NCBI GenBank assembly: GCA_030154265.1
Contig: JASKKH010000003.1
Span: 1-64,000, forward strand
Direction of reading: 5' to 3'
DNA length: 64,000 nt
Source: Clostridia bacterium
Lineage (GTDB): Bacteria > Bacillota > DSM-521 > Neomoorellales > Neomoorellaceae
Shown here: positions 11,002 through 45,510 of the stretch, piece after piece
Position numbering within the stretch: the stretch's first letter is position 1
Layout of the letters: every line of letters begins with the position of its first letter
The notes under the pieces: generated by a model
What the model saw: the letters and a program-made list of their open reading frames with translations, nothing else
Database searches by the model: none
Told to the model about the DNA's origin: nothing
Made by a program: the position numbers and the translations under genes

Positions 11002-12675
11002 TTGGATAAAAAAAAGGTATTAATTGTAGGCGGTGTAGCTGGTGGTGCTAGTGCTGCAACAAGAATAAGGCGTTTAGATGAGCATGCTGAAATTATAATA
11101 TTTGAGCGCGGTGAACATATTTCCTTTGCTAATTGTGGTCTTCCATATTATGTTAGTGGGGTAATTGCTGAAAGGGAAAGACTTCTACTGCAAACACCTT
11201 ATAACATGAAGAAGCGCTATAACATTGATGTTCGTATAAACAGTGAAGTAACTCGTATTTTTCCAGATGAAAAGTTAGTTGAAGTTAAAGAAAAAGACGG
11301 TAAGACATACAAAGAGTCTTATAGCCATTTAATACTGTCCCCAGGTGCATCTCCTATTCGCCCTCCTTTACCAGGTATTGATGCAGAAAATATATTTGTG
11401 CTTCGGAATATACCAGATATTGATGCTATAAAAGCTTTTATCGATGAAAGCAAACCCCAAAAGGCTGTAATAATAGGTGGCGGATTTATAGGTATAGAGA
11501 TGGCGGAGAACTTCTATGCCTTAGGATTGGAAACAACTATTGTTGAAATGGCAGATCAGGTATTAGGGGCACTGGACTATGAAATGGCAGCAATAGTTCA
11601 ACGGCGAATTAGGGCTAAGGGAATTAGATTAATCCTAAAAAATGGGGTCAAAGCATTTGAACAAAAAGGAAATGGCATAACCGAAATTTTACTACAAAAT
11701 GGTGAAAGAATTTCTGCGAATATAATTATATTAGCAATAGGTGTCAAACCAGATACAAAGTTAGCCAAAGAAGCCGGATTGAGTATTGGTGAACACGGTG
11801 GAATTAAAGTAAATGAACGGCTGCAAACATCTGATCCTAATATCTTTGCCATTGGTGATGCCATTGAAGTTAAGGATTTTGTTACAGGGGCAAATACCCT
11901 TATCCCGTTAGCAGGTCCTGCAAACAAGCAGGGGAGAATAGTTGCTGACGTTATAGCTGGACGAAATGCCAGATATGAAGGAACACAGGGGACAGCAATT
12001 GTAAAAGCATTTGACATTATCATAGCCTCTACTGGTGCTAACGAAAAAGTTCTTAAAAAAGCGGGGATTCCTTATGAAGTTTCCTATACACACTCCGGAT
12101 CCCACGCTTCATATTATCCAAATCCCAGCATGATGGCTATAAAGCTCATTTTCAGTCCGGATGATGGAAAGGTATTGGGAGCCCAAATAGTTGGCAGCGG
12201 TGGTGTAGATAAAAGAATAGATAGTATAGCAGGTGCCATAAGAAGGGGAGCAACGGTATTTGATCTACAGGAATTAGAACTTGCATATGCACCTCCATTT
12301 TCGTCTCCCAAAGATCCCGTAAATATGGCTGGTTATGTTGCTGGAAATATAGTAAACGGTGACCTTCCTATAATCCATTGGCATCAAATTCAGAACCTCG
12401 ATTTAGAAAAAACTTTATTAGTTGATGTTCGTACCCCAAAAGAATTTGAAATGGGACATATCGATGGAGCCGTTAATATTCCTCTTGATAATATTAGAGA
12501 ACGGCTTTCGGAATTCCCACATGATAAGGAGATAGTTATCTATTGCCAGGTAGGCTTAAGGGGTTATTTGGCCTGCCGGATTCTTGTTCAACATGGGTTC
12601 AAACAAATTAAAAATCTAAGCGGTGGGATAGTGACCCTCACCCCTCCTTTGGCAGAACGAAAATTAATTAGATAG
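11002..12675 (+). CDS. CoA-disulfide reductase/NADH oxidase family protein with rhodanese domain
   Basis: An FAD/NAD(P)-linked disulfide reductase joined to a C-terminal sulfurtransferase domain (557 residues). The N-terminal Rossmann motif is VGGVAGGASAATRIRR. Redox Cys45 sits in SFANCGLPYY, as in CoA-disulfide reductases and persulfide reductases. A second NAD motif (IIGGGFIGIEMAENF) is near residue 155. The rhodanese domain (about 460-557) keeps its active Cys515 in IYCQVGLRG. Likely reduces CoA disulfide or CoA/glutathione persulfide, for redox and sulfane-sulfur control. TTG start behind AAAGGAG. Confidence 0.9.
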   Translation: MDKKKVLIVGGVAGGASAATRIRRLDEHAEIIIFERGEHISFANCGLPYYVSGVIAERERLLLQTPYNMKKRYNIDVRINSEVTRIFPDEKLVEVKEKDGKTYKESYSHLILSPGASPIRPPLPGIDAENIFVLRNIPDIDAIKAFIDESKPQKAVIIGGGFIGIEMAENFYALGLETTIVEMADQVLGALDYEMAAIVQRRIRAKGIRLILKNGVKAFEQKGNGITEILLQNGERISANIIILAIGVKPDTKLAKEAGLSIGEHGGIKVNERLQTSDPNIFAIGDAIEVKDFVTGANTLIPLAGPANKQGRIVADVIAGRNARYEGTQGTAIVKAFDIIIASTGANEKVLKKAGIPYEVSYTHSGSHASYYPNPSMMAIKLIFSPDDGKVLGAQIVGSGGVDKRIDSIAGAIRRGATVFDLQELELAYAPPFSSPKDPVNMAGYVAGNIVNGDLPIIHWHQIQNLDLEKTLLVDVRTPKEFEMGHIDGAVNIPLDNIRERLSEFPHDKEIVIYCQVGLRGYLACRILVQHGFKQIKNLSGGIVTLTPPLAERKLIR

Positions 12676-13362
12676 TTAGAAATAAATATTATTTTAGGAC
12701 TACTTTAAGTTAAGCATATCTAAATAAAAGGAGTTGGGAAAGTAATTAAATGATTATAACCAAACTTCTTATTTTTATTGCTTAATAGCATATCCCTTGG
12801 ACAAGAATAGACAACAGTTACCTATTCTATTAATCTAATATGATGGTTATCAAATAATGTATGTGAACTTGGAGAGATGTACTATCTCTATTTATGAATG
12901 TTAGTGATAGTTCTGTTCTAATAAAATGGCATTTTTTCTTCAGGTTATAGTTTCTAAAAAATTGGCATACGTTCCAATAAGTAAAAAAATATTGCGGTAG
13001 AATAAAAAATTTATTAAAAAAGGAGTGAAGGTTTTACCAAAATTTCTTCAAGAATTAGATTTTGTAGATTTGGTTTTACTTGTAATTTTAGTTTTTACTT
13101 TATCAGGAGCAGTTCCGGATAAGGTTATGCCCCAAGCTACTGAATGGACAGGTGGTTAATTTCTTTTCTAGTAGGTAAGAAAATACCACAGTCTCTCAAA
13201 CGGTAAACTCTGAATTTATTAAGTAAACTATACCTAAACTGTTAAAATGTGATATAATTTTACTAGTTAAATATGATATAATTCCTATTTAAGATATGAT
13301 TTTGAATCCAAATACCAAACCCAGGACTTTATTACATATAAGAAAATCGTTTTGTTTAGTGT
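12676..13362. other. Long AT-rich intergenic region
   Basis: Apart from a possible 44-codon frame (13025-13159), no gene is visible. Two similar blocks containing GATATAATT (TATAAT at 13253-13258 and 13277-13282) look like -10 elements for the gene at 13411, but neither has a convincing -35 at the right distance. The remainder shows no structure I can name. Confidence 0.5.
13025..13159 (+). CDS. Possible small membrane protein, 44 aa
   Basis: A GTG-started frame encodes a short product with one likely membrane helix (about residues 14-30, LVLLVILVFTLSGAV) and a polar tail ending in TEWTGG. AAAAAGGAG abuts the GTG with almost no spacer, which weakens the start. I see no better in-frame start. 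No family recognised. It may be a real small protein or a chance frame in a gene-poor stretch. Confidence 0.3.
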   Translation: MKVLPKFLQELDFVDLVLLVILVFTLSGAVPDKVMPQATEWTGG

Positions 13363-13390
13363 CCACTCCTATCTGGGGTGGTTTATTTTA
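13363..13390 (+). terminator. Small hairpin with U-rich tail before the AIRS-ThiN gene
   Basis: CCACTCC (13363-13369) pairs with GGGGTGG (13375-13381), with one G-T, and is followed by TTTATTTTA. It ends only about 20 bases before the AUG at 13411, so it could attenuate that gene or terminate upstream transcription. Confidence 0.45.
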
Positions 13391-13410
13391 TAGTAGGAGG
13401 CATTAGGCTT

Positions 13411-14988
13411 ATGATTGGGAAAGTAAACGATGATTTTTTTCGCAAGGCTATCTTGCCAAATACAGGGGCAGAAAACCCTAACATAATTATAGGTCCACAT
13501 ATGGGAATAGATGCAGCCGTTCTAAAAGTTGGAGATGAATATCTTGCTATTGCTGAAGACCCAATATTTCCTGGACCAACAATGTCACCAAAAGATTTTG
13601 CTTGGATAACAGTACATATTGGAGCAAGTGATGTAGCCGTAATGGGAATCAAACCCCAGTATATGACTTATTCTTTGTTATTACCTCCGGGAACCCCAGA
13701 AGACTATATCTCGGAATTAGTTAAATACATAAGCAAATATGCCCAAGAATTAGGAATAAAAATTGCAGGAGGACATACAGGTTTTTATGGTGCAGTAACG
13801 GTACCAACTATTGGGGGCATAACCGTCTGGGGTATGGGCAGCGAAGTAATTTCTCCAAAAGGGGCTCAGGTTGGTGACTCAGTCATTATAACTAAGGGAG
13901 CAGCTATTGAAGCTGTTGCTCTTATTGCCAGTGAATTAGATGATACATTGTTAGCAAAGGGTGTATCACCAGAATTAATTGACCGGGCAAAAAAACGTAT
14001 GCGGGAAGTATCAGTAGTTGCAGATGCGGAGATAGCAGTAAATGTAGGTGGTGTTCACGCCATGCATGATGCCACTGAAGGTGGATTGGCCCGGGGACTT
14101 TGGGAGGTAGCTGAGGCTTCTGGGGTAGGTCTTATGATTGAGCGATCAAAGGTTCCATTACCAAAAGATATAGAAGCTATATGTTCTCACTTTGAACTTA
14201 ACCCCTATGAAATAATTAGTGAAGGAACCCTAGTTTTGACCTGTGACCCAGAAAAAGAGGAGTCCTTAATTAAAGCATTTATAGAAAAAGGAATTGAAGC
14301 AGCGGTTATTGGAAAAGTAATTCCAGTTTCAGAAGGTCGTTACTGGATAAATCCTTCTGGTCAAAAAGAAAATCTCATTCCCCCATCCATTGACCGCTTT
14401 TGGGAAGTATTTTTTAATGCCCTAGAACTTAAAAATGAGGTCAATAAGGATGAAGAGGCCTTCCTTTGCAAAGAGCTGGGGCAGGCTGTTAAGGAATTAC
14501 AGTCAACTAACATAGTAAATTTAATACCTGAAATCGGTGCCAATCTAGCTTATGCTCTCACTGATGCCAAGGAACTAAAGGATATTGCTGCTATACCGGG
14601 GCGGATGCTGCGGTTTAAAGGGCAGGTAGCTACCCTGGGTGAACCTGAAATGGGATGTTCAAGCCATATGGGTGGTACAATTCTTGCCGTTCGAAAATTA
14701 TTCCCAACAGCAAGATGCGTTATTAACTTACGCAATAACCAAAAGATTAGGGAGGCTTGCAAAGAGTTAGGATTTAAGGTTGTTAATATGCCGACTCCAC
14801 CAGATTACCGACAGGAAGACGATGATTTCTATAAAGATTTAAATAAGGTTCTCTCAAGTTGTAGTCAGCTACCTGATGTTATTGAAATACCTGATCGAAT
14901 TAATTTAGAGAGACTAATCCTGGTATTAGGAGAAAGTTTAGAGGAAACGGTTAACAAAGTTAAAGCATTATCAGAGAAAATAAAATAG
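13411..14988 (+). CDS. AIR-synthase-like protein fused to a ThiN (thiamine-phosphate synthase) domain
   Basis: The product has 525 residues from the preferred ATG at 13411 (AGGAGG 10 bases upstream; GTG at 13378 has no such site). Residues about 1-330 are an AIR synthase/ThiL/HypE/SelD-type ATP-binding enzyme (GIDAAVLKVGDEYLA, GASDVAVMG, HDATEGGLARGLWEVAE). Residues about 360-525 resemble ThiN, the thiamine-phosphate synthase found mainly in archaeal ThiDN proteins (LIPEIGANLAYAL, PGRMLRF, GCSSHMGG). It may join thiamine phosphate and convert it further, but that is inference. A thiamin-unrelated role for the AIRS half is possible. Confidence 0.75.
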   Translation: MIGKVNDDFFRKAILPNTGAENPNIIIGPHMGIDAAVLKVGDEYLAIAEDPIFPGPTMSPKDFAWITVHIGASDVAVMGIKPQYMTYSLLLPPGTPEDYISELVKYISKYAQELGIKIAGGHTGFYGAVTVPTIGGITVWGMGSEVISPKGAQVGDSVIITKGAAIEAVALIASELDDTLLAKGVSPELIDRAKKRMREVSVVADAEIAVNVGGVHAMHDATEGGLARGLWEVAEASGVGLMIERSKVPLPKDIEAICSHFELNPYEIISEGTLVLTCDPEKEESLIKAFIEKGIEAAVIGKVIPVSEGRYWINPSGQKENLIPPSIDRFWEVFFNALELKNEVNKDEEAFLCKELGQAVKELQSTNIVNLIPEIGANLAYALTDAKELKDIAAIPGRMLRFKGQVATLGEPEMGCSSHMGGTILAVRKLFPTARCVINLRNNQKIREACKELGFKVVNMPTPPDYRQEDDDFYKDLNKVLSSCSQLPDVIEIPDRINLERLILVLGESLEETVNKVKALSEKIK

Positions 14989-15816: not shown

Positions 15817-15879
15817 TTCGTTGTAAAATAAAAGCAAAACGAATAATAGATGACAAGCCAACGAAAGGGGAGTTTATTG

Positions 15880-16662
15880 ATGAGGATTGCCATTATAGGT
15901 GGATCGGGTGTTTATGATCCTGGTATTTTAACAAATATTCATGAAGAGAAAATAGAGACACCATATGGTATGGTGGATATAAAAGTTGGTACTTATGAAG
16001 GTGAGGAAATAGGGTTCATGCCGCGCCATGGTGAGAAACATTCACTACCTCCCCATAAAGTCAATTACCGAGCAAATATCTGGGCCCTAAAGAAGTTAAA
16101 AGTAGAGAGGGTTTTGGCAACAGCTGCAGTAGGTTCTACAAATACAGATTTTCAGCCAGGTGATTTTGTTATTGTTAACGATTTCTTAGATTTTACCAAA
16201 AATAGAACATATACTTTTTTTGAAGGCGGACAAATGGGAGTAGTACATACAGATTTCACTGAACCTTACTGTCCAGAATTACGCAAGGTTCTAGTAGAAA
16301 CAGCAAAAAAACTGGGTATTAAAGCCCATGATGGTGGGGTTTATGCTTGCACAGAGGGCCCCCGCTTTGAAACCCCTGCCGAAATCCGTATGATTAGTCG
16401 TTTGGGTGGGGATTTAGTAGGTATGACTAATGTCCCTGAAGTCGTTTTGGCCCACGAGCTAGGCCTATGTTACGGTCTTATTGCCATGGTTACTAACTTA
16501 GGAGCAGGGATTTCTGAAAATCCATTAAGTCATCAGGAAGTTTTAGATATAATGGATCAGAATGGCAAAAACCTCAAAAATCTCATTATGGAATCTATTC
16601 CGGCTATTCCTTTGGAGAGAAATTGCAGTTGTAACCAGAGCGGAGGGAAAATCGAGGTTTAG
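15880..16662 (+). CDS. mtnP: S-methyl-5'-thioadenosine phosphorylase (or MTI phosphorylase)
   Basis: Phosphorolyses methylthioadenosine to adenine and methylthioribose-1-phosphate, the substrate of MtnA encoded further on. ATG at 15880 is taken because AAAGGGGAG lies just before it; an upstream in-frame ATG (15850) would add ten residues with no ribosome site. The 260-residue product shows GGSGVYDPG, MPRHGEKHSLPPHKVNYRAN, EGPRFETPAEIRM and the nucleoside-binding stretch GGDLVGMTNVPEVVLA. Preference for adenosine or inosine forms cannot be settled by eye. Its last codons form the first unit of a decayed tandem repeat. Confidence 0.92.
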   Translation: MRIAIIGGSGVYDPGILTNIHEEKIETPYGMVDIKVGTYEGEEIGFMPRHGEKHSLPPHKVNYRANIWALKKLKVERVLATAAVGSTNTDFQPGDFVIVNDFLDFTKNRTYTFFEGGQMGVVHTDFTEPYCPELRKVLVETAKKLGIKAHDGGVYACTEGPRFETPAEIRMISRLGGDLVGMTNVPEVVLAHELGLCYGLIAMVTNLGAGISENPLSHQEVLDIMDQNGKNLKNLIMESIPAIPLERNCSCNQSGGKIEV

Positions 16663-16940
16663 AGCTTGAAAAGGGTACTTCGTTCTTAAGGGTGGAAAAT
16701 GTTGCAAACTTAACGGTGGAAAAATGAGGTTTAGAACTAGGTAAAAAGTTGTAACCTCAAACAATGGGAAACTCGAGGTCTGGGCTGACAAAATCCTCGC
16801 TTTTGTGACGGATAAAAGTTTTAATCTCAATGGTTGAAAACTCGAGGTCTAGATAATAAAAATCTCGCTTTTGAGACGGATAAAAAGCTGAAACTCAATG
16901 GTCGGGAAATGAATCTCATCAGTTATAAACTCGAAGTGTA
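16641..16940. repeat. Degenerate ~66-68-base tandem repeat at the mtnP 3' end
   Basis: Similar units begin near 16641, 16713, 16763, 16829 and 16897. The best pair (16763-16828 and 16829-16896) share AAACTCGAGGTCT, TCTCGCTTTTG or a variant, and GACGGATAAAA, with periods of 66 and 68 bases. The first unit overlaps the final codons and stop of mtnP (SGGKIEV), which suggests the array arose by duplication of the gene end. No ORF runs through it. It fills the gap up to ahcY, whose ribosome site follows it. Confidence 0.75.
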
Positions 16941-16960
16941 GGGAGGAATTTAAAAAGTTT

Positions 16961-18214
16961 ATGTCTGAATCTATTATTCGTGATCCGGGTTTAACTGAAC
17001 AAGGAGTTCTTAAAATAAATTGGGTTCGTAATAACATGCCTATCCTAAATGAGATTCGTAAAGAATTTGAGGAACGTAAGCCGTTTGCAGGTAAAAATGT
17101 TGCCATCTGCTTACATTTAGAAGCCAAAACAGCTTATCTTGCCGAAGTTATTAAAGCAGGTGGAGCTGAGGTTGCGGTTTGTGGTTCAAATCCACTGTCC
17201 ACCCAGGATGATGTATGTGCTGGGTTAGCAAGTCATGGGATAAAGGTTTTTGCTCGTCATGGCTGCACGGATGAAGAGTACAAGTTTTTTATATCAAAGG
17301 TGTTAGATACCAATCCTCATCTTCTTATTGATGATGGTGGAGATATGGTTCATTTACTCCATACTGAACGAAGAGAACTCTTGCCCAATATTATTGGCGG
17401 TGCAGAGGAAACGACAACAGGTATCTTGCGTTTAAAAGCCATGGAAAAAGAAGGTGTATTAGAATTTCCCATGGTTGCTGTCAATAATGGTGACTGTAAA
17501 CACTTATTTGACAATCGTTATGGTACAGGTCAATCTACCTGGGACGGAATAATTCGTAATACTAATCTAACTGTTTGTGGGAAAACAGTTGTTGTCGCCG
17601 GTTATGGTTGGTGTGGCAAGGGTGTAGCAATGCGAGCCAAAGGACTGGGCGCTCGAGTGATAGTTACAGAGGTAAATCCCATTTGTGCCAATGAAGCTTT
17701 AATGGATGGCTTTCAGGTCATGCCTATGAAAGAGGCAGCTAAGTGTGGCGATATTTTTGTTACAGTTACCGGGTGTAAAGATGTTATAAGAGATGAACAC
17801 TTTGCTGTTATGAAAGATGGTGCCATTTTAGCTAATGCTGGTCATTTTGATGTAGAAATAAACAAGCAAGATTTAATGGCTATGTCTAAGGAGCACCGAA
17901 AGGCAAGAAATAACATAGAACAGTATGTTTTAGAAGATGGTCGGCTTATTAATCTTTTAGCAGAAGGTCGCTTGGTAAATATTGCCGCTGCTGACGGGCA
18001 TCCGGCAGAAATAATGGATCTTACATTTGCTCTGCAAGCCCTTTCAATGGAATATTTGCTTAAAAACAGCGGAAAATTACCTAACAAAGTTATTGAGGTA
18101 ACAGAGGAAATTGACCATCAGGTAGCGTGGTTACGATTAAAGTCTTTGGGAGTGGAGATTGATAGGTTAACTGAAGAACAGGAAAAATATCTTGCCAGCT
18201 GGAGACATGAATAG
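16961..18214 (+). CDS. ahcY: Adenosylhomocysteinase family protein
   Basis: Splits S-adenosylhomocysteine (or S-inosylhomocysteine) to homocysteine and the nucleoside with bound NAD+. The 417-residue product lacks the insertion of longer bacterial forms, matching archaeal and Thermotoga-type enzymes. Visible motifs are [22 protein letters not shown], the NAD-binding [17 protein letters not shown], and [12 protein letters not shown] after GGGAGGAA. It lies between mtnP and mtnA, so the three genes handle both by-products of S-adenosylmethionine use. Confidence 0.93.
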
Positions 18215-18230
18215 CTTAAGACATTATACT

Positions 18231-18270
18231 AAAGGTAGCCATATTAGTTTCAATATGGTTACCTTTTATT
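18231..18270 (+). terminator. Hairpin between ahcY and mtnA
   Basis: AAAGGTAGCCATATT (18231-18245) pairs with AATATGGTTACCTTT (18252-18266) with one G-T mismatch, and TTATTT follows. It ends only 20 bases before the mtnA start, so it may partly terminate and lower mtnA expression relative to ahcY. Confidence 0.75.
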
Positions 18271-18286
18271 TAAAGAGGTGTTTGTC

Positions 18287-19327
18287 ATGTTAGAACCCAT
18301 AGCTCCAATTAATTGGGAAAAAGATCAGGTAGTAATAATTGATCAGACATGCTTGCCAGAAAAAGAGGTATATATTTATCCTCAAAAAGTAGAAGAAGTA
18401 TGGGATGCAATTAAAAAATTAAAGGTACGTGGTGCGCCGGCTATCGGTATTGCAGCAGCTTTTGGTCTGTATTTGGCTGTTAAGGATTCCCGTGCAGGGG
18501 ATAAAAAGGGTTTTCTAGCTGAATTAAATAAAGCCTCTGATTATCTTGCTTCTTCACGTCCTACGGCTGTTAATTTGTTTTGGGCTTTAGATAGGGTAAA
18601 AAGAGCAGTTGAAGCAGCTGATACTGATAATGTTGCTGATTTAATTAATTTGGTACACAAAGAAGCATTGGCTATTCGTGATGAAGATGAGGCTATGTGT
18701 CGAGCTATCGGTAAAAATGGTGCCTCACTTCTAAGAGATGTTGATTCTGTACTGACGCATTGTAACGCAGGTACTCTGGCTACATCCCGTTTTGGTACTG
18801 CACTATCTCCCATTTATGAATTAAAGAAGCAGGGTAAGCTGTTAAAGGTTTTTGTTGATGAAACCAGACCTCTCCTTCAAGGAGCCCGATTAACTGCTTG
18901 GGAACTTCACCAAGCCGGTATACCTCTAACACTTATTACTGATAATATGGCAGCTGCTGTTATGGCTCGTGGTTGGGTGCAGGCAGTTATTGTAGGAGCG
19001 GACCGCATTACCGCAAATGGAGATGTTGCTAATAAAATAGGTACCTATGGAGTGGCTATCCTTGCAAAAGAACATAATATTCCTTTTTATGTGGCAGCAC
19101 CGGCATCTACTTTTGATTTAAGTTTAGAAAGTGGCGAGCAAATCCCAATAGAAGAAAGAAATCCGGAAGAAGTCAGTCATTTTGGTCTTAGACGTACGGC
19201 TCCGGAAGGAATAGATATATTTAATCCGGCTTTTGATGTAACACCTTCACGTTATGTTACAGCCATAATTACCGAAAAAGGTGTAATTAGACCACCTTAC
19301 AAACAAAACATTGCAAAGATGTTCTAG
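18287..19327 (+). CDS. mtnA: Methylthioribose-1-phosphate isomerase
   Basis: Converts methylthioribose-1-phosphate to methylthioribulose-1-phosphate, the step after mtnP. ATG at 18287 is preferred because AAAGAGG ends about 8 bases before it; GTG at 18278 overlaps that site. Family motifs are RGAPAIGIAAAFGLYLA, THCNAGTLATSRFGTA, DETRPLLQGARLTAWEL, GADRITANGDVANKIGTYG and YVAAPASTFD. The length (346 residues) is standard. Later salvage genes (mtnB, mtnD and others) are not in the window. Confidence 0.95.
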   Translation: MLEPIAPINWEKDQVVIIDQTCLPEKEVYIYPQKVEEVWDAIKKLKVRGAPAIGIAAAFGLYLAVKDSRAGDKKGFLAELNKASDYLASSRPTAVNLFWALDRVKRAVEAADTDNVADLINLVHKEALAIRDEDEAMCRAIGKNGASLLRDVDSVLTHCNAGTLATSRFGTALSPIYELKKQGKLLKVFVDETRPLLQGARLTAWELHQAGIPLTLITDNMAAAVMARGWVQAVIVGADRITANGDVANKIGTYGVAILAKEHNIPFYVAAPASTFDLSLESGEQIPIEERNPEEVSHFGLRRTAPEGIDIFNPAFDVTPSRYVTAIITEKGVIRPPYKQNIAKMF

Positions 19328-39390: not shown

Positions 39391-42300
39391 TTGAAAAAGA
39401 AAATAACAAAAATAATGCAAATATTTATGCTCGCCTTAGTGGCGTTATTTTTTTATAGTGGTCAGGCATTGGCCACCACCCCTCAGATTGATTCTGTAAG
39501 CCCAAGTAGCGGCCCTCTTAGCGGTGGCACTAAAGTTACTATTAGTGGAAATAATTTTACAGCCAATTCTAAAGTCTATTTTGATGAGTCCCAGGCATTG
39601 GAAGTATACTATGTTAATAATACCGAATTAGAAGTGAAAACACCTCCAAGTCCGGTATCAGGAAAGGTGGATATTAAAATTGTTAATGAAGATGGTGAGC
39701 AGGGTGTTAAATTTGATGCTTTTCTCTATAATCCTATAATTACTGAGGTTACGGAAGATACTCGTGAAGGAAGTACTGTCGGTGGCGATCAAATTACAAT
39801 TAAGGGTGAGGGTTTCCAAAATGATTTAACACTGTACGTTGGTACTAATGTTGCTACCAATGTGACTGTTTCTAGTGACGGTACAACCATAAACGCAATA
39901 ACACCACCTGGTTCAACAGGACCGGTTAAAATCAAAGTAGTTAACCCTGATGGCGGTTCAGCAGTGCTATCTGATACTTCTAATGAAACTTTTAAATATA
40001 GGCTAAGCAATCCTGTTATTAATAAATTTGAGCCTGACAGAGGGACAATAGAAGGTGAGACACAAGTAACCATTTACGGGGACGAGTTAAGTCCCGATGG
40101 CACTGTCTACTTTGGAGATTCACCTGCTATTATTGATAAAGAAGCCTCCAATACTACAAAGTTAGAAGTTACGACACCACCATCCGGTACCGCTGGCTTT
40201 GTAAAAGTTACTATATATAATCCTGATGGGGAGTCAGCCACTGCTGCTGATGAGTATGAATATATTGTAGTCCCCCAAATACTTTCTATAACTCCAAACT
40301 ATGGATCGCCTGAAGGTGGAGAAGAGGTTACTATAGAGGGTAATAACTTTTTAGCCTTAGATTCCCCTGTGGTAACTTTTGGTGGTGAACAAGCTGATAT
40401 AAAAGAGAAGGGATCAAATGACCAGGGAATGAGTTATCTCAAAGTTCTTACCCCTGCTTTTGATTCTATAGGTGCTGTCGATGTGGCTGTTTATGATGCA
40501 AGTGACATAGACAAAATTGATATTGTTTATAGAGGGTTTACTTACAAAAATGAACTCAGTCAGCCAAGAATCGATAGCATTACACCTAATTCCGGCAGTG
40601 TCGAAGGTGGCATGGAGGTTACTATTAAAGGTCAGAATTTCTTTTCAGGTGTAGATGTACCCCTTAAAGTATTTTTTGGTGAAAAGGAAGCAACCCAAGT
40701 AACCGTAAAAAGTTCTGAAGAAATTGCAGTAGTTGTCCCACAAAGTGATGTAACTGGGCCGGTTGACGTAACTGTAGAAAACTCGGACGGGGCACAATAT
40801 ACTTTTTCCAATGGATTTAATTATCTTGCTCCGGAACGGGTTCTTTTAATAACAAATATTACTCCTAACAAGGGAACCATGGAAGGTGGTACCCCAGTTA
40901 CCATCAATGGTGCCAATTTTCTTGAACCTGATAACGACTCTTCAGATAATGTTACAGTTGATGTTAGCTTAACGATTGGTGGTCATGAGGTAAACGACCT
41001 TAAATTTATTGACAGTCATACTTATGAGGCTGTTGCTCCTCCCGGCTATGGAACCGTAGATGTAAGTTTATTAATAACGAAGACTACAAAAAAAGAAGAT
41101 GGTACATCTGAAATATTTACTGAAAGAGCAATTTTAAAAGACGGGTATACCTATGTTATTCCTGAAAGTAATCCCATCATCACTGGTGTTACACCTTCCA
41201 GAGGGCCGAAAGCAGGCGGGACACTAATAACAATCGAAGGTACAGATTTCCGGGCACCTAAGACGGGAGAGGAAGTAAAGGTTTATATCGGCGGTGTTGA
41301 GGCGACAAATGTACAGGTAGAAAGTAGTACCAAAATTACGGCCTATACCCCGGCTTCAGAAACCGTTGGTCTAAAGGATATTGTTGTAATAAATCCTGAC
41401 CTGGCTACAGCAATTATGCCTAATGCCTTTACTTATGTTGCTAATATTATGACTATTGTCAGTGTCACCCCGGATAAGGGTCCGGTTTCTGGCTCAACTT
41501 TGATAACAATTACCGGTGCTAACTTTGACCAAGATGAAGAACAATATACAGCTGTTGAAATAGGAACAGAAACAGAGGAAGCAAGAGAATTTTATTCAGC
41601 GACAATAGTTGAAATTACTGAAGATGGAACTACCATAAAAGCTTTAACACCTGAACACACAGCTGGTATTAAAGATGTTGTGGTTAAAAATCGTTTTGGA
41701 AGCGTAACCTTACCTGGTGCTTTCACCTATTATGTACCTTCCAGCGAACCCCAAATTATGGATATAGAGCCTAAAAGTGGTCCCACTACAGGAGGTACGC
41801 CTATCACAATACGGGGTGTTAACTTCCAGGCTAAAGCTAAGGTTACCATTGGCGGCAAGGAAGCTGCTGAAGTAGAGGTTATTGATGTTGATGAAATTCG
41901 TGCCGTTACTCCATCCGGAGAACCCGGTCCTCAGGATATTGTGGTTCATAACCCTGATGGAGGTAAGGCTACCCTAACCTCAGGCTTCATATATATTAGT
42001 CATCCTGAGATAAAAAGCATAAATCCTGACCGGGGAAGTGTTAACGGAGGTGACATTGTCACCATTAAGGGTAATGACTTTTATCCAGGTATGCAGATTT
42101 TCTTTGGTACCGATTTAAGCATTAAGTATGAAACAGTATCCGAAGGTGTTTATCAGCAGGTACCAAAGGGTGACTACGAACAGGTACTGGATGGAGATAT
42201 TTTTGTTGTTGACCCACAAACGGTTAAGTTACGTTTACCTGCCTGGAATGAAACAGTACCAGAAGAGGGATTAAAGGTAGACGTGGCTATCATCAACTCC

Positions 42301-45300
42301 GATTCTCAATATTCCCAAGACGGGGGGTCAGTCATAGCTCCTGAAATTTTTACTTATCGTGAACCTGTTTTTAAACCAATTATTGAAGACATTACTCCAA
42401 ACTTTGGCCCTGCAGAAGGGAAAAATGAGGTACTTATAACCGGAACGGATTTCCAGCCTGATGCCAAGGTCTATTTTGGCTGGGAAGAGGCCAAGGTACT
42501 CGAGGTCACTCCTAACCTGATTAGGGTTAGCGCCCCTGCTAATAGTCCGGGATTTTATGATGTAACCGTAGTCAATGTAAATGATACAAGTACCGTTACA
42601 AAAGAAGATGCATATGAGTACCGTCAGCCTTTAACCTCACCCCGCATTACCGGTGCTTTTCCAGCCTACGGTCCTGCGGCAGGCGGAATCTTACTTAAAA
42701 TAACCGGTCAGTACTTCTGGCCCGGGGTTAAGGTTTTTATTGGTACAAAAGAAGCACATCTTTATGTGGATGAAAATGGATATATTGTTGCTCCAGAATT
42801 TGATAATGAAGGTAATCTCATACCTCCGGAAAATGGAAAAGAGATTGACCCTCTGGTAACTTCTAGTGGTGAGGTCATTTATGTGCATACTCCTCCGGGT
42901 CCTAAGGCAGGGGAGACTTATGTACCTGGTCCGGTTGACATATATATAGTTAATCCTGACGGGGGAAGTGCCAACCTCCGCGAAGGGTTTACCTACAAAG
43001 TACCCGACAGTGATCCTGTAATTACAAAGATTGATCCGATTATCGGGACTACCAAAGGTGGTACTCCAGTAACTATTACAGGTGAAGACTTCCGTGAGGA
43101 ACTGGAGGTATATTTTGATGGCATTAAGGTAGAGGTAACCAAAGTCACCCCAACTGAGGTTAAGGTCATAACCCCGGCTCATGAACCCGGCTTTGTCGAT
43201 ATAACTTTAGTTAATAAGGATAGCGGTATTGCTGCATTTTACAGGGCTTTTGAATACCGGGTGCCGGCCAGTCAACCGGAAATTGAAAGTATCGAACCTG
43301 ACATAGGTAGTATTATGGGTGGCACCCCGGTTGTTATCAAAGGTGATGATTTCCGTAAAGGTGAAGACGGTAGTGTACCTAAGGTATATTTTGACGGTAC
43401 AGAAGCTACTGATGTTCAGTATATAGACTATAAAACCCTAACCTGTGTCACCCCTCCGGGAGAAGCAGGCAAGGCTGATGTTACTGTGGCTAATCCAGAT
43501 CTAGGCTCATTTACACTAAGACAAGGATTTACCTACCAAAGTTCGGTTCCTAAAATAGAAGCCGTTGTCCCAAACCGGGCAACGAGAGAGGGCGGTATTC
43601 AGGTTGTCATAAGAGGCAGTGACTTTATATCAACACCTGAATCGGTTCTCGAAGTGTATTTTGGTACTGAACCGGGAACCGAGACCGCTGTTAATGCTGA
43701 AGGGACAATGATTAAGACAATTCTCCCTCCGGCAAAAGATGGCCGTTTAGGAGCTGTTGATGTCAAAGTTATTAACGGCGACGGCGTTGAAGTAGTATTA
43801 AAGGACGGCTTTACCTACGTAGTGCCTGACAGTCAGCCGGTTGTTGAAAGCATAGATCCTAACGAAGGCAGTACCAATGGTGGTAACTGGGCTACTATTA
43901 AAGGCCAAGATTTTCGTAAAGACCCTGAGGTCTTTATCGGAGGCCAGCCAGCCCAGACCGTAAAATTAATAGATAGTAATACAATCCGGATTAAATTGCC
44001 GCCTCATACTGAAGGGGCTAAAGACGTCATGGTAGTTAACTATGACGGCGGTACAGGTATCCTTCCTGCGGGTTATATCTATAAGATACCCGAGAGTGAA
44101 CCCATTATTGAAAAAATTGAACCCAACAGGGGCCCTCAGGTAGGTGGAACCTCAATTACCGTAACAGGTTTAGACTTTCGTGAAGGGGTAGAGCTCTATA
44201 TCGGTGGAGCCCTTGCCGAGGACATTAAACGGGTAGATTATGCCACTATTACAGCAGAAACCCCACCGGGCAGTGTAGGACCGGCAGATGTTACTGTCGT
44301 TAACCCCGACCGCGGCACTTATACTCTTAGCAAAGGTTTTACTTACTATTTTGTTGAGACACCAACTATAAATAGCGTCGAGCCTAACGAAGGACCTGCT
44401 ACCGGGGGAACGGAAATTACAATCAGTGGTAGTAAGTTTAAAAGGGATACCAAAGTATATGTTGGTGATGCTCTGGCAGATAACATTGAAGTAGTAAGTG
44501 ATATTTTAATTAAGGCTACAACTCCACCGGGTGATGTTGGCTGGCAGGAGGTTAAAGTAGTTAATCTTGACGGGGGCTGGAGTTCCCTTGAAGAAGGTTT
44601 TAAATATCTAAGACCTCGTGGTGTGCCTGATACACCAACAGGTTTTTATGCCAAGCTAGTTGACCCTGAAACCCTTAAACTAAAATGGAATCCTTCTGAA
44701 TTTGCCAACTACTATGAAATCTGGGTAAGTGGAGGACGTTACAGAGATTACCGTTTCCTTGCTCGGACCAGTGATACAATCTACTACACTGACAGCTTAT
44801 TAGAAGATGCAGGTCATTACTTCAAAGTCAGGGCTGTAAATGAGTTCGGATGTTCAGGTTTTTCCGATGAATACTATGCCCGTGTTGAAGAAGACGATGA
44901 CGATGATTACCCAGAAAGGGACGACGTTCAAACAAAAACAACTCATGGTATAGCTGAAACTACCATTAACGATTCAAGAGTTTTATCGAGACATTATAAC
45001 TTGGATTTCTCGTCATCTGAGTACAGGAATACAAGAAAGTTTATTGTAAGAGTAGACGCTGAGGCAGTTGATTACGCCAGAGGGGGATTGACCCTACACC
45101 TTAATGACCTGTCTCTTGGTGTACCGGTTAATGTCTTAAAGGATATATATAAGGACACCATAGGTTACAATCAAAAGGATTCCTGGGTAGAGGTAATTAT
45201 AGAGGATCTTGGACAGAAAGAAGCAGAGTCATTACTTAAATATTTACCTCGGAGTTCTGAGATTGTTTCCCATGTCTGGAGTGTAAAATTCCAGGGGCGC

Positions 45301-45510
45301 ATTGGCAGACACACATATCCCGACAGTGTTTTACCCGTAGGGACAATGCTAAACTTTTCTAACGTTTCTGGAACTGTAACTTCACCGGTTGTGTATTGTT
45401 TTAATGCTTTTACTCATACCTGGGAGCAGGCTGATAGTTACTATACACCGACTGCTGTAGAGGTCCGTATACCAGGAAAATATGTATTAGTTGATAGCGG
45501 AGGAAGGTAA
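39391..45510 (+). CDS. Giant exported protein with 18 IPT/TIG repeats and an FN3 domain
   Basis: A 2039-residue secreted surface protein. A signal peptide (residues 1-28, cleavage after ALA) is followed by 18 IPT/TIG immunoglobulin-like domains of roughly 85-115 residues. Each opens with a version of I-x-P-x-x-G-x-x-x-GG-x-x-V-T-I-x-G-x-x-F (first near residue 32, last near 1655). A fibronectin type III-like domain (about 1743-1830), an acidic stretch and an unrecognised ~190-residue C-terminal domain end it. No SLH, LPXTG or membrane anchor is visible. TTG start behind GGAGGGG. Probably a filament, adhesin or surface-layer component. Two SLH proteins follow. Confidence 0.85.
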   Translation: MKKKITKIMQIFMLALVALFFYSGQALATTPQIDSVSPSSGPLSGGTKVTISGNNFTANSKVYFDESQALEVYYVNNTELEVKTPPSPVSGKVDIKIVNEDGEQGVKFDAFLYNPIITEVTEDTREGSTVGGDQITIKGEGFQNDLTLYVGTNVATNVTVSSDGTTINAITPPGSTGPVKIKVVNPDGGSAVLSDTSNETFKYRLSNPVINKFEPDRGTIEGETQVTIYGDELSPDGTVYFGDSPAIIDKEASNTTKLEVTTPPSGTAGFVKVTIYNPDGESATAADEYEYIVVPQILSITPNYGSPEGGEEVTIEGNNFLALDSPVVTFGGEQADIKEKGSNDQGMSYLKVLTPAFDSIGAVDVAVYDASDIDKIDIVYRGFTYKNELSQPRIDSITPNSGSVEGGMEVTIKGQNFFSGVDVPLKVFFGEKEATQVTVKSSEEIAVVVPQSDVTGPVDVTVENSDGAQYTFSNGFNYLAPERVLLITNITPNKGTMEGGTPVTINGANFLEPDNDSSDNVTVDVSLTIGGHEVNDLKFIDSHTYEAVAPPGYGTVDVSLLITKTTKKEDGTSEIFTERAILKDGYTYVIPESNPIITGVTPSRGPKAGGTLITIEGTDFRAPKTGEEVKVYIGGVEATNVQVESSTKITAYTPASETVGLKDIVVINPDLATAIMPNAFTYVANIMTIVSVTPDKGPVSGSTLITITGANFDQDEEQYTAVEIGTETEEAREFYSATIVEITEDGTTIKALTPEHTAGIKDVVVKNRFGSVTLPGAFTYYVPSSEPQIMDIEPKSGPTTGGTPITIRGVNFQAKAKVTIGGKEAAEVEVIDVDEIRAVTPSGEPGPQDIVVHNPDGGKATLTSGFIYISHPEIKSINPDRGSVNGGDIVTIKGNDFYPGMQIFFGTDLSIKYETVSEGVYQQVPKGDYEQVLDGDIFVVDPQTVKLRLPAWNETVPEEGLKVDVAIINSDSQYSQDGGSVIAPEIFTYREPVFKPIIEDITPNFGPAEGKNEVLITGTDFQPDAKVYFGWEEAKVLEVTPNLIRVSAPANSPGFYDVTVVNVNDTSTVTKEDAYEYRQPLTSPRITGAFPAYGPAAGGILLKITGQYFWPGVKVFIGTKEAHLYVDENGYIVAPEFDNEGNLIPPENGKEIDPLVTSSGEVIYVHTPPGPKAGETYVPGPVDIYIVNPDGGSANLREGFTYKVPDSDPVITKIDPIIGTTKGGTPVTITGEDFREELEVYFDGIKVEVTKVTPTEVKVITPAHEPGFVDITLVNKDSGIAAFYRAFEYRVPASQPEIESIEPDIGSIMGGTPVVIKGDDFRKGEDGSVPKVYFDGTEATDVQYIDYKTLTCVTPPGEAGKADVTVANPDLGSFTLRQGFTYQSSVPKIEAVVPNRATREGGIQVVIRGSDFISTPESVLEVYFGTEPGTETAVNAEGTMIKTILPPAKDGRLGAVDVKVINGDGVEVVLKDGFTYVVPDSQPVVESIDPNEGSTNGGNWATIKGQDFRKDPEVFIGGQPAQTVKLIDSNTIRIKLPPHTEGAKDVMVVNYDGGTGILPAGYIYKIPESEPIIEKIEPNRGPQVGGTSITVTGLDFREGVELYIGGALAEDIKRVDYATITAETPPGSVGPADVTVVNPDRGTYTLSKGFTYYFVETPTINSVEPNEGPATGGTEITISGSKFKRDTKVYVGDALADNIEVVSDILIKATTPPGDVGWQEVKVVNLDGGWSSLEEGFKYLRPRGVPDTPTGFYAKLVDPETLKLKWNPSEFANYYEIWVSGGRYRDYRFLARTSDTIYYTDSLLEDAGHYFKVRAVNEFGCSGFSDEYYARVEEDDDDDYPERDDVQTKTTHGIAETTINDSRVLSRHYNLDFSSSEYRNTRKFIVRVDAEAVDYARGGLTLHLNDLSLGVPVNVLKDIYKDTIGYNQKDSWVEVIIEDLGQKEAESLLKYLPRSSEIVSHVWSVKFQGRIGRHTYPDSVLPVGTMLNFSNVSGTVTSPVVYCFNAFTHTWEQADSYYTPTAVEVRIPGKYVLVDSGGR

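Follow-up and report, generated by a model that had tools for sequence, protein, structure and literature searches.

In genome reconstructions of vitamin B1 metabolism, ThiL or TPK are counted as the only routes to TPP (PMC6593275); the name "ThiN" in a table row of that paper seems to denote the TPK of B. subtilis, not the ThiN domain (PF10120) considered below. S. aureus is reported to have TPK and no ThiL (PMC2766623), and the TPK route is therefore a full alternative. The TMP synthase ThiDN replaces E. coli thiE, and a His is essential in the ThiN of T. maritima (both from PMC11551756). Among the papers listed by literature searches, none describes an AIRS-ThiN fusion or the family to which its AIRS half belongs, here referred to as AIRS-T.

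Such a fusion is encoded in a 64,000-nucleotide stretch of DNA from a Clostridia bacterium, referred to as the window, where the features of the gene are the following:

13411..14988, plus strand: AIRS-ThiN fusion gene, 525 aa, with an alternative upstream GTG start at 13378
13395..13400, plus strand: Shine-Dalgarno-like AGGAGG, seen in the sequence ahead of the ATG at 13411
13510..13821, plus strand: AIRS N-terminal domain, residues 34-137 (Pfam PF00586, E 3.6e-20)
13867..14334, plus strand: AIRS C-terminal domain (AIRS_C), residues 153-308 (Pfam PF02769, E 3.3e-22)
14476..14964, plus strand: ThiN domain, residues 356-518 (Pfam PF10120, E 9.8e-39, 133 bits, cut-off 25)
14602-14604, plus strand: R398, aligned with the Arg of the Arg/His pair thought to be catalytic in ThiN
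14665-14667, plus strand: H419, aligned with the His of that pair

The single open frame begins with the GTG and spans 13378-14988 (536 aa), but the ATG at 13411 is the better start, because the aligned proteins of relatives begin (MIGKVNDDFF) at this Met and the AGGAGG lies ahead of it. A Pfam search with the 525-aa protein placed AIRS, AIRS_C and ThiN far above their cut-offs and found no ThiD domain (PF08543). In an AlphaFold2 model (mean pLDDT 83.3, pTM 0.65, 10 rows), residues 1-332 match HypE (3vyt, Z 33.3), ThiL (3c9t, Z 28.2) and SelD (3u0o, Z 28.0), while residues 347-525 match the ThiN structures 2pb9 (Z 23.7, rmsd 2.1, 171 aligned) and 2php (Z 23.3); no family beyond AIRS and ThiN is found among the matches listed in this comparison (VIA-align). 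The first-pass annotation, which placed a ThiN domain at about residues 360-525 behind an AIRS domain, was thus right about the architecture. The fusion is the only ThiN match in its own genome (G000). Beside it, at 15850-19327, are genes that by eye resemble mtnP, ahcY and mtnA, a neighborhood kept in Moorella. Elsewhere in the window, 39391-45510 encodes a 2039-aa protein in which 18 stretches are TIG domains; genes for S-layer homology proteins come next.

When 17 further family genomes were searched, six of them (G004, G007, G009, G011, G012 and G013) proved to hold full-length fusions with 70-72% identity, so the fusion is not an assembly artefact. A further copy (G001) is cut by the contig end after residue 325, and in G008 (L010 / L063) there is a 77-aa remnant in which the first ~66 residues run in frame into the last few of the protein, so the fusion gene can be lost. 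Relatives that carry a species name include Moorella thermoacetica and M. sulfitireducens. Across the phylum, ThiN was found in 25 of 398 genomes; GTDB contigs, when scanned, yielded 107 relatives, of which 80 were kept. According to local profiles, the AIRS-ThiN order occurs in bacteria, mostly Bacillota, but also in Fibrobacter and in one Methanosarcinaceae MAG, while the reverse ThiN-AIRS order occurs in archaea and some bacteria; in other layouts a ThiN gene lies just upstream, ThiN or ThiDN lies just downstream, or AIRS-T stands alone. The association with ThiN switches many times on the tree, and because the two fusion orders occupy different parts of it, they presumably arose separately or were re-joined. 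One locus (L084:439-2838) encodes a triple fusion, AIRS-ThiN-isochorismatase, of 799 aa. Lone ThiN genes in L035, L038 and L039 (G044, G345 and G209) adjoin genes that by eye resemble aldehyde ferredoxin oxidoreductase and alcohol dehydrogenase; these three genomes have TPK and lack ThiL.

The link of the family to thiamine is provided by the relatives. Of 33 loci examined, the window among them, 25 have a same-strand TPP riboswitch (RF00059) at the head of the AIRS-T gene or of the operon that contains it, and only same-strand genes lie between the aptamer and the AIRS-T gene (gene names were assigned partly by eye). These loci comprise 7 of 11 genomes (G001, G009, G011, G013, G138, G315 and G361, as opposed to G000, G004, G007 and G012), 8 of 11 further loci (all except L069, L073 and L075), 9 of another 10 (all except L088, which begins inside thiE) and L070. 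By chance, fewer than one riboswitch would be expected at the head of an AIRS-T gene (45 aptamers in 18 genomes, about 54 Mb). Genes identified by Pfam or NCBIfam in the operons include thiD, thiE, thiM and thiC (L071), thiD, thiE, ThiL and tenA (L072, where thiL and the fusion share one operon), an NMT1/THI5 binding protein with ThiD-ThiE (L076), TenA (L095), a thiamine-binding protein with ThiE (L078) and ThiE (L130). In L083 and L098 a thiamine-binding protein (PF01910) is encoded directly upstream of AIRS-T, and members of its sequence cluster occupy that position in 8 loci. In G405 the fusion is the last gene of a riboswitch-headed thiD-thiE-thiM-thiC operon, and in G224 a riboswitch operon holds, between its thiC and thiL, a lone ThiN that is similar to the fused type. 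On account of these riboswitches and thi operons, the thiamine link proposed in the first-pass annotation is firm, and the AIRS-T family almost certainly belongs to thiamine metabolism.

Several of these loci hold other genes of interest. In L052:5233-8784 (G138) a TPP riboswitch heads a LuxE-like gene, a LuxC-like acyl reductase, a short-chain dehydrogenase and then AIRS-ThiN, a set divergent from a riboswitch thiD-thiM-thiE set; as a guess, it could be an acid-to-alcohol route for oxidised thiamine or thiazole. An MtnX-like HAD phosphatase (L079:10576-11217 and its cluster in 5 loci), which accompanies AIRS-T in thi operons where the genome has TPK, is a candidate TMP phosphatase. Several archaeal AIRS-T loci (e.g., L091, L107, L113 and L134) have genes nearby that by eye resemble cysteine desulfurase, IscU and cysteine synthase, a putative link to sulfur. 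In Clostridium oryzae (L085:7198-7845) pieces of group II intron RNA lie directly upstream of the AIRS-T TPP riboswitch.

No TPP aptamer was found in 12600-13480 and no decayed one in the window leader, and the fold of the leader is no more stable than that of shuffles (z -0.14). The leader does hold one further feature:

13363..13381, plus strand: hairpin resembling a terminator (7 pairs, followed by TTTATTTTAT), just ahead of the ribosome site and 30 bases from the ATG

The hairpin and its T-run align with the terminator of the TPP riboswitch of G011 and G009, and it seems that in the window lineage the aptamer was lost while the terminator was kept.

In a 91-row tree, from which 14 duplicate or closely similar loci were omitted, the 80 AIRS-T rows fall apart from the ThiL, HypE and SelD references with weak split support (77), and we take the AIRS half as a separate clade of the AIR-synthase fold. 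All 80 rows have D34, D50 and D74 in the N-terminal part and D220 in AIRS_C, which align with Asp residues of ThiL and which we take to be the metal-binding Asp of the fold. Also invariant are H69, H122 and H219, the Glu residues 49, 167, 223 and 271 and Lys 162; a C-terminal D..FW block is nearly invariant. Where ThiL has GGD, presumably a motif of that enzyme, every AIRS-T row has GGH. Given the invariance of these Asp, His, Glu and Lys residues, the AIRS half is probably a working enzyme that uses ATP and has its own kind of pocket. Furthermore, 25 of 50 carrier genomes hold the AIRS half without any ThiN, which points to AIRS as the core and ThiN as an accessory. These two observations bear also on the proposal that the protein has lost catalysis and acts as a sensor of TMP or TPP. 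A ThiN-type domain forms the ligand-binding part of the archaeal regulator ThiR, so that a sensing role would have a precedent, but the four metal-type Asp and three His of the AIRS half are invariant in 80 of 80 rows, and half of the carrier genomes retain the AIRS half with no ThiN at all; we consider a sensor very unlikely.

The family that matches best in both sequence (111.8 bits) and fold (Z 33) is HypE (TIGR02124), i.e., the AIRS half could be a hydrogenase maturation factor to which ThiN was fused incidentally. However, the score is far below the HypE cut-off (251.6), and the C-terminal Cys (PRIC), which we take to be a functional HypE feature, is absent in the window protein while present in the three HypE references (3 of 3); relatives have, in addition, a HypE with PRIC. 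Together with the TPP riboswitch and thi-operon context these data lead us to reject HypE as the function, and the idea of an incidental fusion is hardly credible. Similarly, on the curated ThiL cut-off and the placement in the tree we reject that the protein is a ThiL in disguise.

The gene content of the carriers is consequential for the reaction. In its own genome (99.91% complete), ThiE is found twice (225 and 211 bits, cut-off 145), ThiM is present, and ThiC is present with a TPP aptamer upstream. Profile searches of this genome found no TPK and no ThiL above the cut-off; matches to ThiL at E<=1e-3 were the fusion (97.7 bits), SelD (NCBIfam) and one weak match in a 350-aa frame. The fusion is therefore the only visible candidate for the step from TMP to TPP. 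It is also possible that thiL was lost in an assembly gap of this genome; in a comparison of synteny, the gene beside thiL in G002 had its match here at only 38%, in another setting. The first-pass annotation had named the joint presence of intact thiE and thiL as counting against its proposal, and of that pair thiE is present, thiL not.

Among 35 genomes of the phylum, 27 have ThiL above the cut-off, 7 have TPK of at least 90 bits without ThiL, and only G000 has neither. Genomes were searched for 50 of the 80 kept loci: 32 have ThiL, and of the remaining 18 all but four have a full TPK (14 genomes). Neither is found in G405, G430, G433 and G434, all of which are MAGs of uncertain completeness and the last three archaeal. 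Short TPK matches (33-40 bits over 35-50 residues in frames of 374-429 aa, above the Pfam cut-off), one of them in G405, were counted as absent. A status table of 62 carrier rows, compiled by hand and omitting L082, where the contig ends inside the gene, gives 40 with ThiL only, 16 with TPK only, 1 with both and 5 with neither. Given this near-strict complementarity, the AIRS half is not, as a rule, a substitute for ThiL, and a simple replacement of ThiL by AIRS-T everywhere is weakened accordingly. In independent-pairs tests ThiL and TPK moved in opposite directions in about 5 of 8 pairs (median p 0.06); the link with ThiN was not significant against either TPK or ThiL (5 pairs).

The mechanism that we favor is the following. 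The AIRS half would be the catalytic core of the AIRS-T protein, would bind Mg-ATP and would most likely transfer phosphate to a thiamine compound, and in the window bacterium the likeliest reaction would be TMP + ATP -> TPP + ADP. The ThiN half would most likely bind TMP or its parts and pass TMP to the AIRS half or adjust its activity; it would no longer make TMP, a role left to ThiE. As a whole, with the AIRS half as TMP kinase and the ThiN half binding TMP, this mechanism is quite possible, if somewhat short of an even chance. With neither ThiL nor TPK visible in the genome, the kinase role proposed already in the first-pass annotation is plausible here, and the fold, the pathway, the regulation and the absence of both enzymes in G000 and G405 support it. 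On the other hand, the ThiL cut-off is missed (96 vs 184), and most carriers have ThiL or TPK besides: AIRS-T appears to relieve the need for neither, and if it made TPP freely, loss of ThiL would not require TPK. Further points against a TMP kinase are that L072 has both thiL and the fusion, that the AIRS half is nearer to HypE than to ThiL (112 vs 96 bits; Z 33 vs 28), that the Asp of the ThiL GGD is His in 80 of 80 rows, and that the window gene lacks a TPP aptamer.

Alternatively, the AIRS half may serve thiamine salvage or repair through a different ATP-dependent step, e.g., one that converts thiamine to TMP or activates a precursor or a damaged form, and that would be useful alongside ThiL or TPK; the TPP-forming enzyme of the window genome would then be one that is not visible. 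Carriers have ThiL or TPK almost exclusively, the conserved active-site residues differ from those of ThiL, and the operon partners, i.e., the PF01910 protein directly upstream (L083 and L098, its cluster there in 8 loci), the NMT1/THI5-type binding protein and tenA, fit such a step. However, no single missing step suits all carriers, and G000 and G405 would be left without any TPP-forming enzyme. A salvage or repair role is thus possible, though clearly below even odds. About equally possible is the broader view that AIRS-T is a third, not yet recognized kind of TPP-former beside ThiL and TPK, spread through bacteria and archaea, to which ThiN was joined repeatedly and in both orders, delivering or sensing TMP.

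In the favored mechanism the ThiN half is not a second catalyst. In the alignment of 18 AIRS-ThiN proteins, the column of the essential His, which was equated with H95 of T. maritima ThiN by inference from the alignment with 2pb9, holds His in 9, Tyr in 8 and Asn in 1. The SMPW and GKE blocks of N-terminal and archaeal ThiN are lost in the bacterial AIRS-ThiN proteins, of which L084 retains WGT and EP as a remnant. With these blocks gone and the His kept in only half of the proteins, the ThiN half of this fusion type is eroded; in the window protein it more likely binds a ligand than catalyses TMP synthesis. Moreover, ThiE was found in all 18 genomes searched. In the alternative put forward in the first-pass annotation, both halves are active in one chain, ThiN making TMP and AIRS phosphorylating it. 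R398 and H419 are kept in the window, and the ThiN-AIRS proteins have His in 10 of 10 with the GKE block retained in those of archaea; in some of these genomes (G426, G438 and G447) the ThiN-AIRS protein is the only ThiN. The archaeal proteins may be truly bifunctional. For the window protein, synthesis of TMP is not borne out: the genome has two ThiE genes, 9 of the 18 fusions of this type have Tyr or Asn in place of the His, SMPW and GKE are lost, and the column is presumably that of the His on which T. maritima ThiN depends (PMC11551756). Two active halves are therefore unlikely here.

The TPP control of the AIRS-T relatives in many bacteria and archaea points to an unstudied vitamin B1 enzyme, perhaps the missing last step in the window bacterium. 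A widespread TPP-regulated enzyme family outside the list of ThiL and TPK would alter predictions of which organisms need vitamin B1. Carriers that offer ready candidates for study are Moorella thermoacetica, Clostridium oryzae, Fibrobacter intestinalis and Megasphaera paucivorans.

Compared with known systems, AIRS-T shares with ThiL (TIGR01379; 3c9t/3c9u with TMP and TPP) the AIRS fold (Z 28), the four aligned Asp and a place in thiamine operons and the TPP regulon. It differs from ThiL in having GGH for GGD, in its own invariant H69, H219 and E271 and C-terminal D..FW, and in forming a separate clade; the window protein scores 96.4 bits (97.7 in the genome search) against a ThiL cut-off of 184.15. 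With SelD (TIGR00476) it has the fold and the GGH and TK positions in common, but scores 80.8 bits against a cut-off of 125, and the genome carries a SelD of its own (373 bits). As in ThiDN and the ThiN-type TMP synthases (PF10120; 2pb9, 2php), the ThiN domain of the window is whole and has Arg and His; in contrast to ThiDN, it is fused to AIRS rather than ThiD, and among fusions of this type only 9 of 18 retain the His, with the GKE and SMPW blocks lost. Also close are the ThiN-AIRS proteins (L096, L107, L108, L113, L117, L133, L134, L136, L140 and L142), for which we know of no described function. These consist of the same AIRS clade and ThiN as the window protein, but in the opposite domain order and with the ThiN blocks intact.
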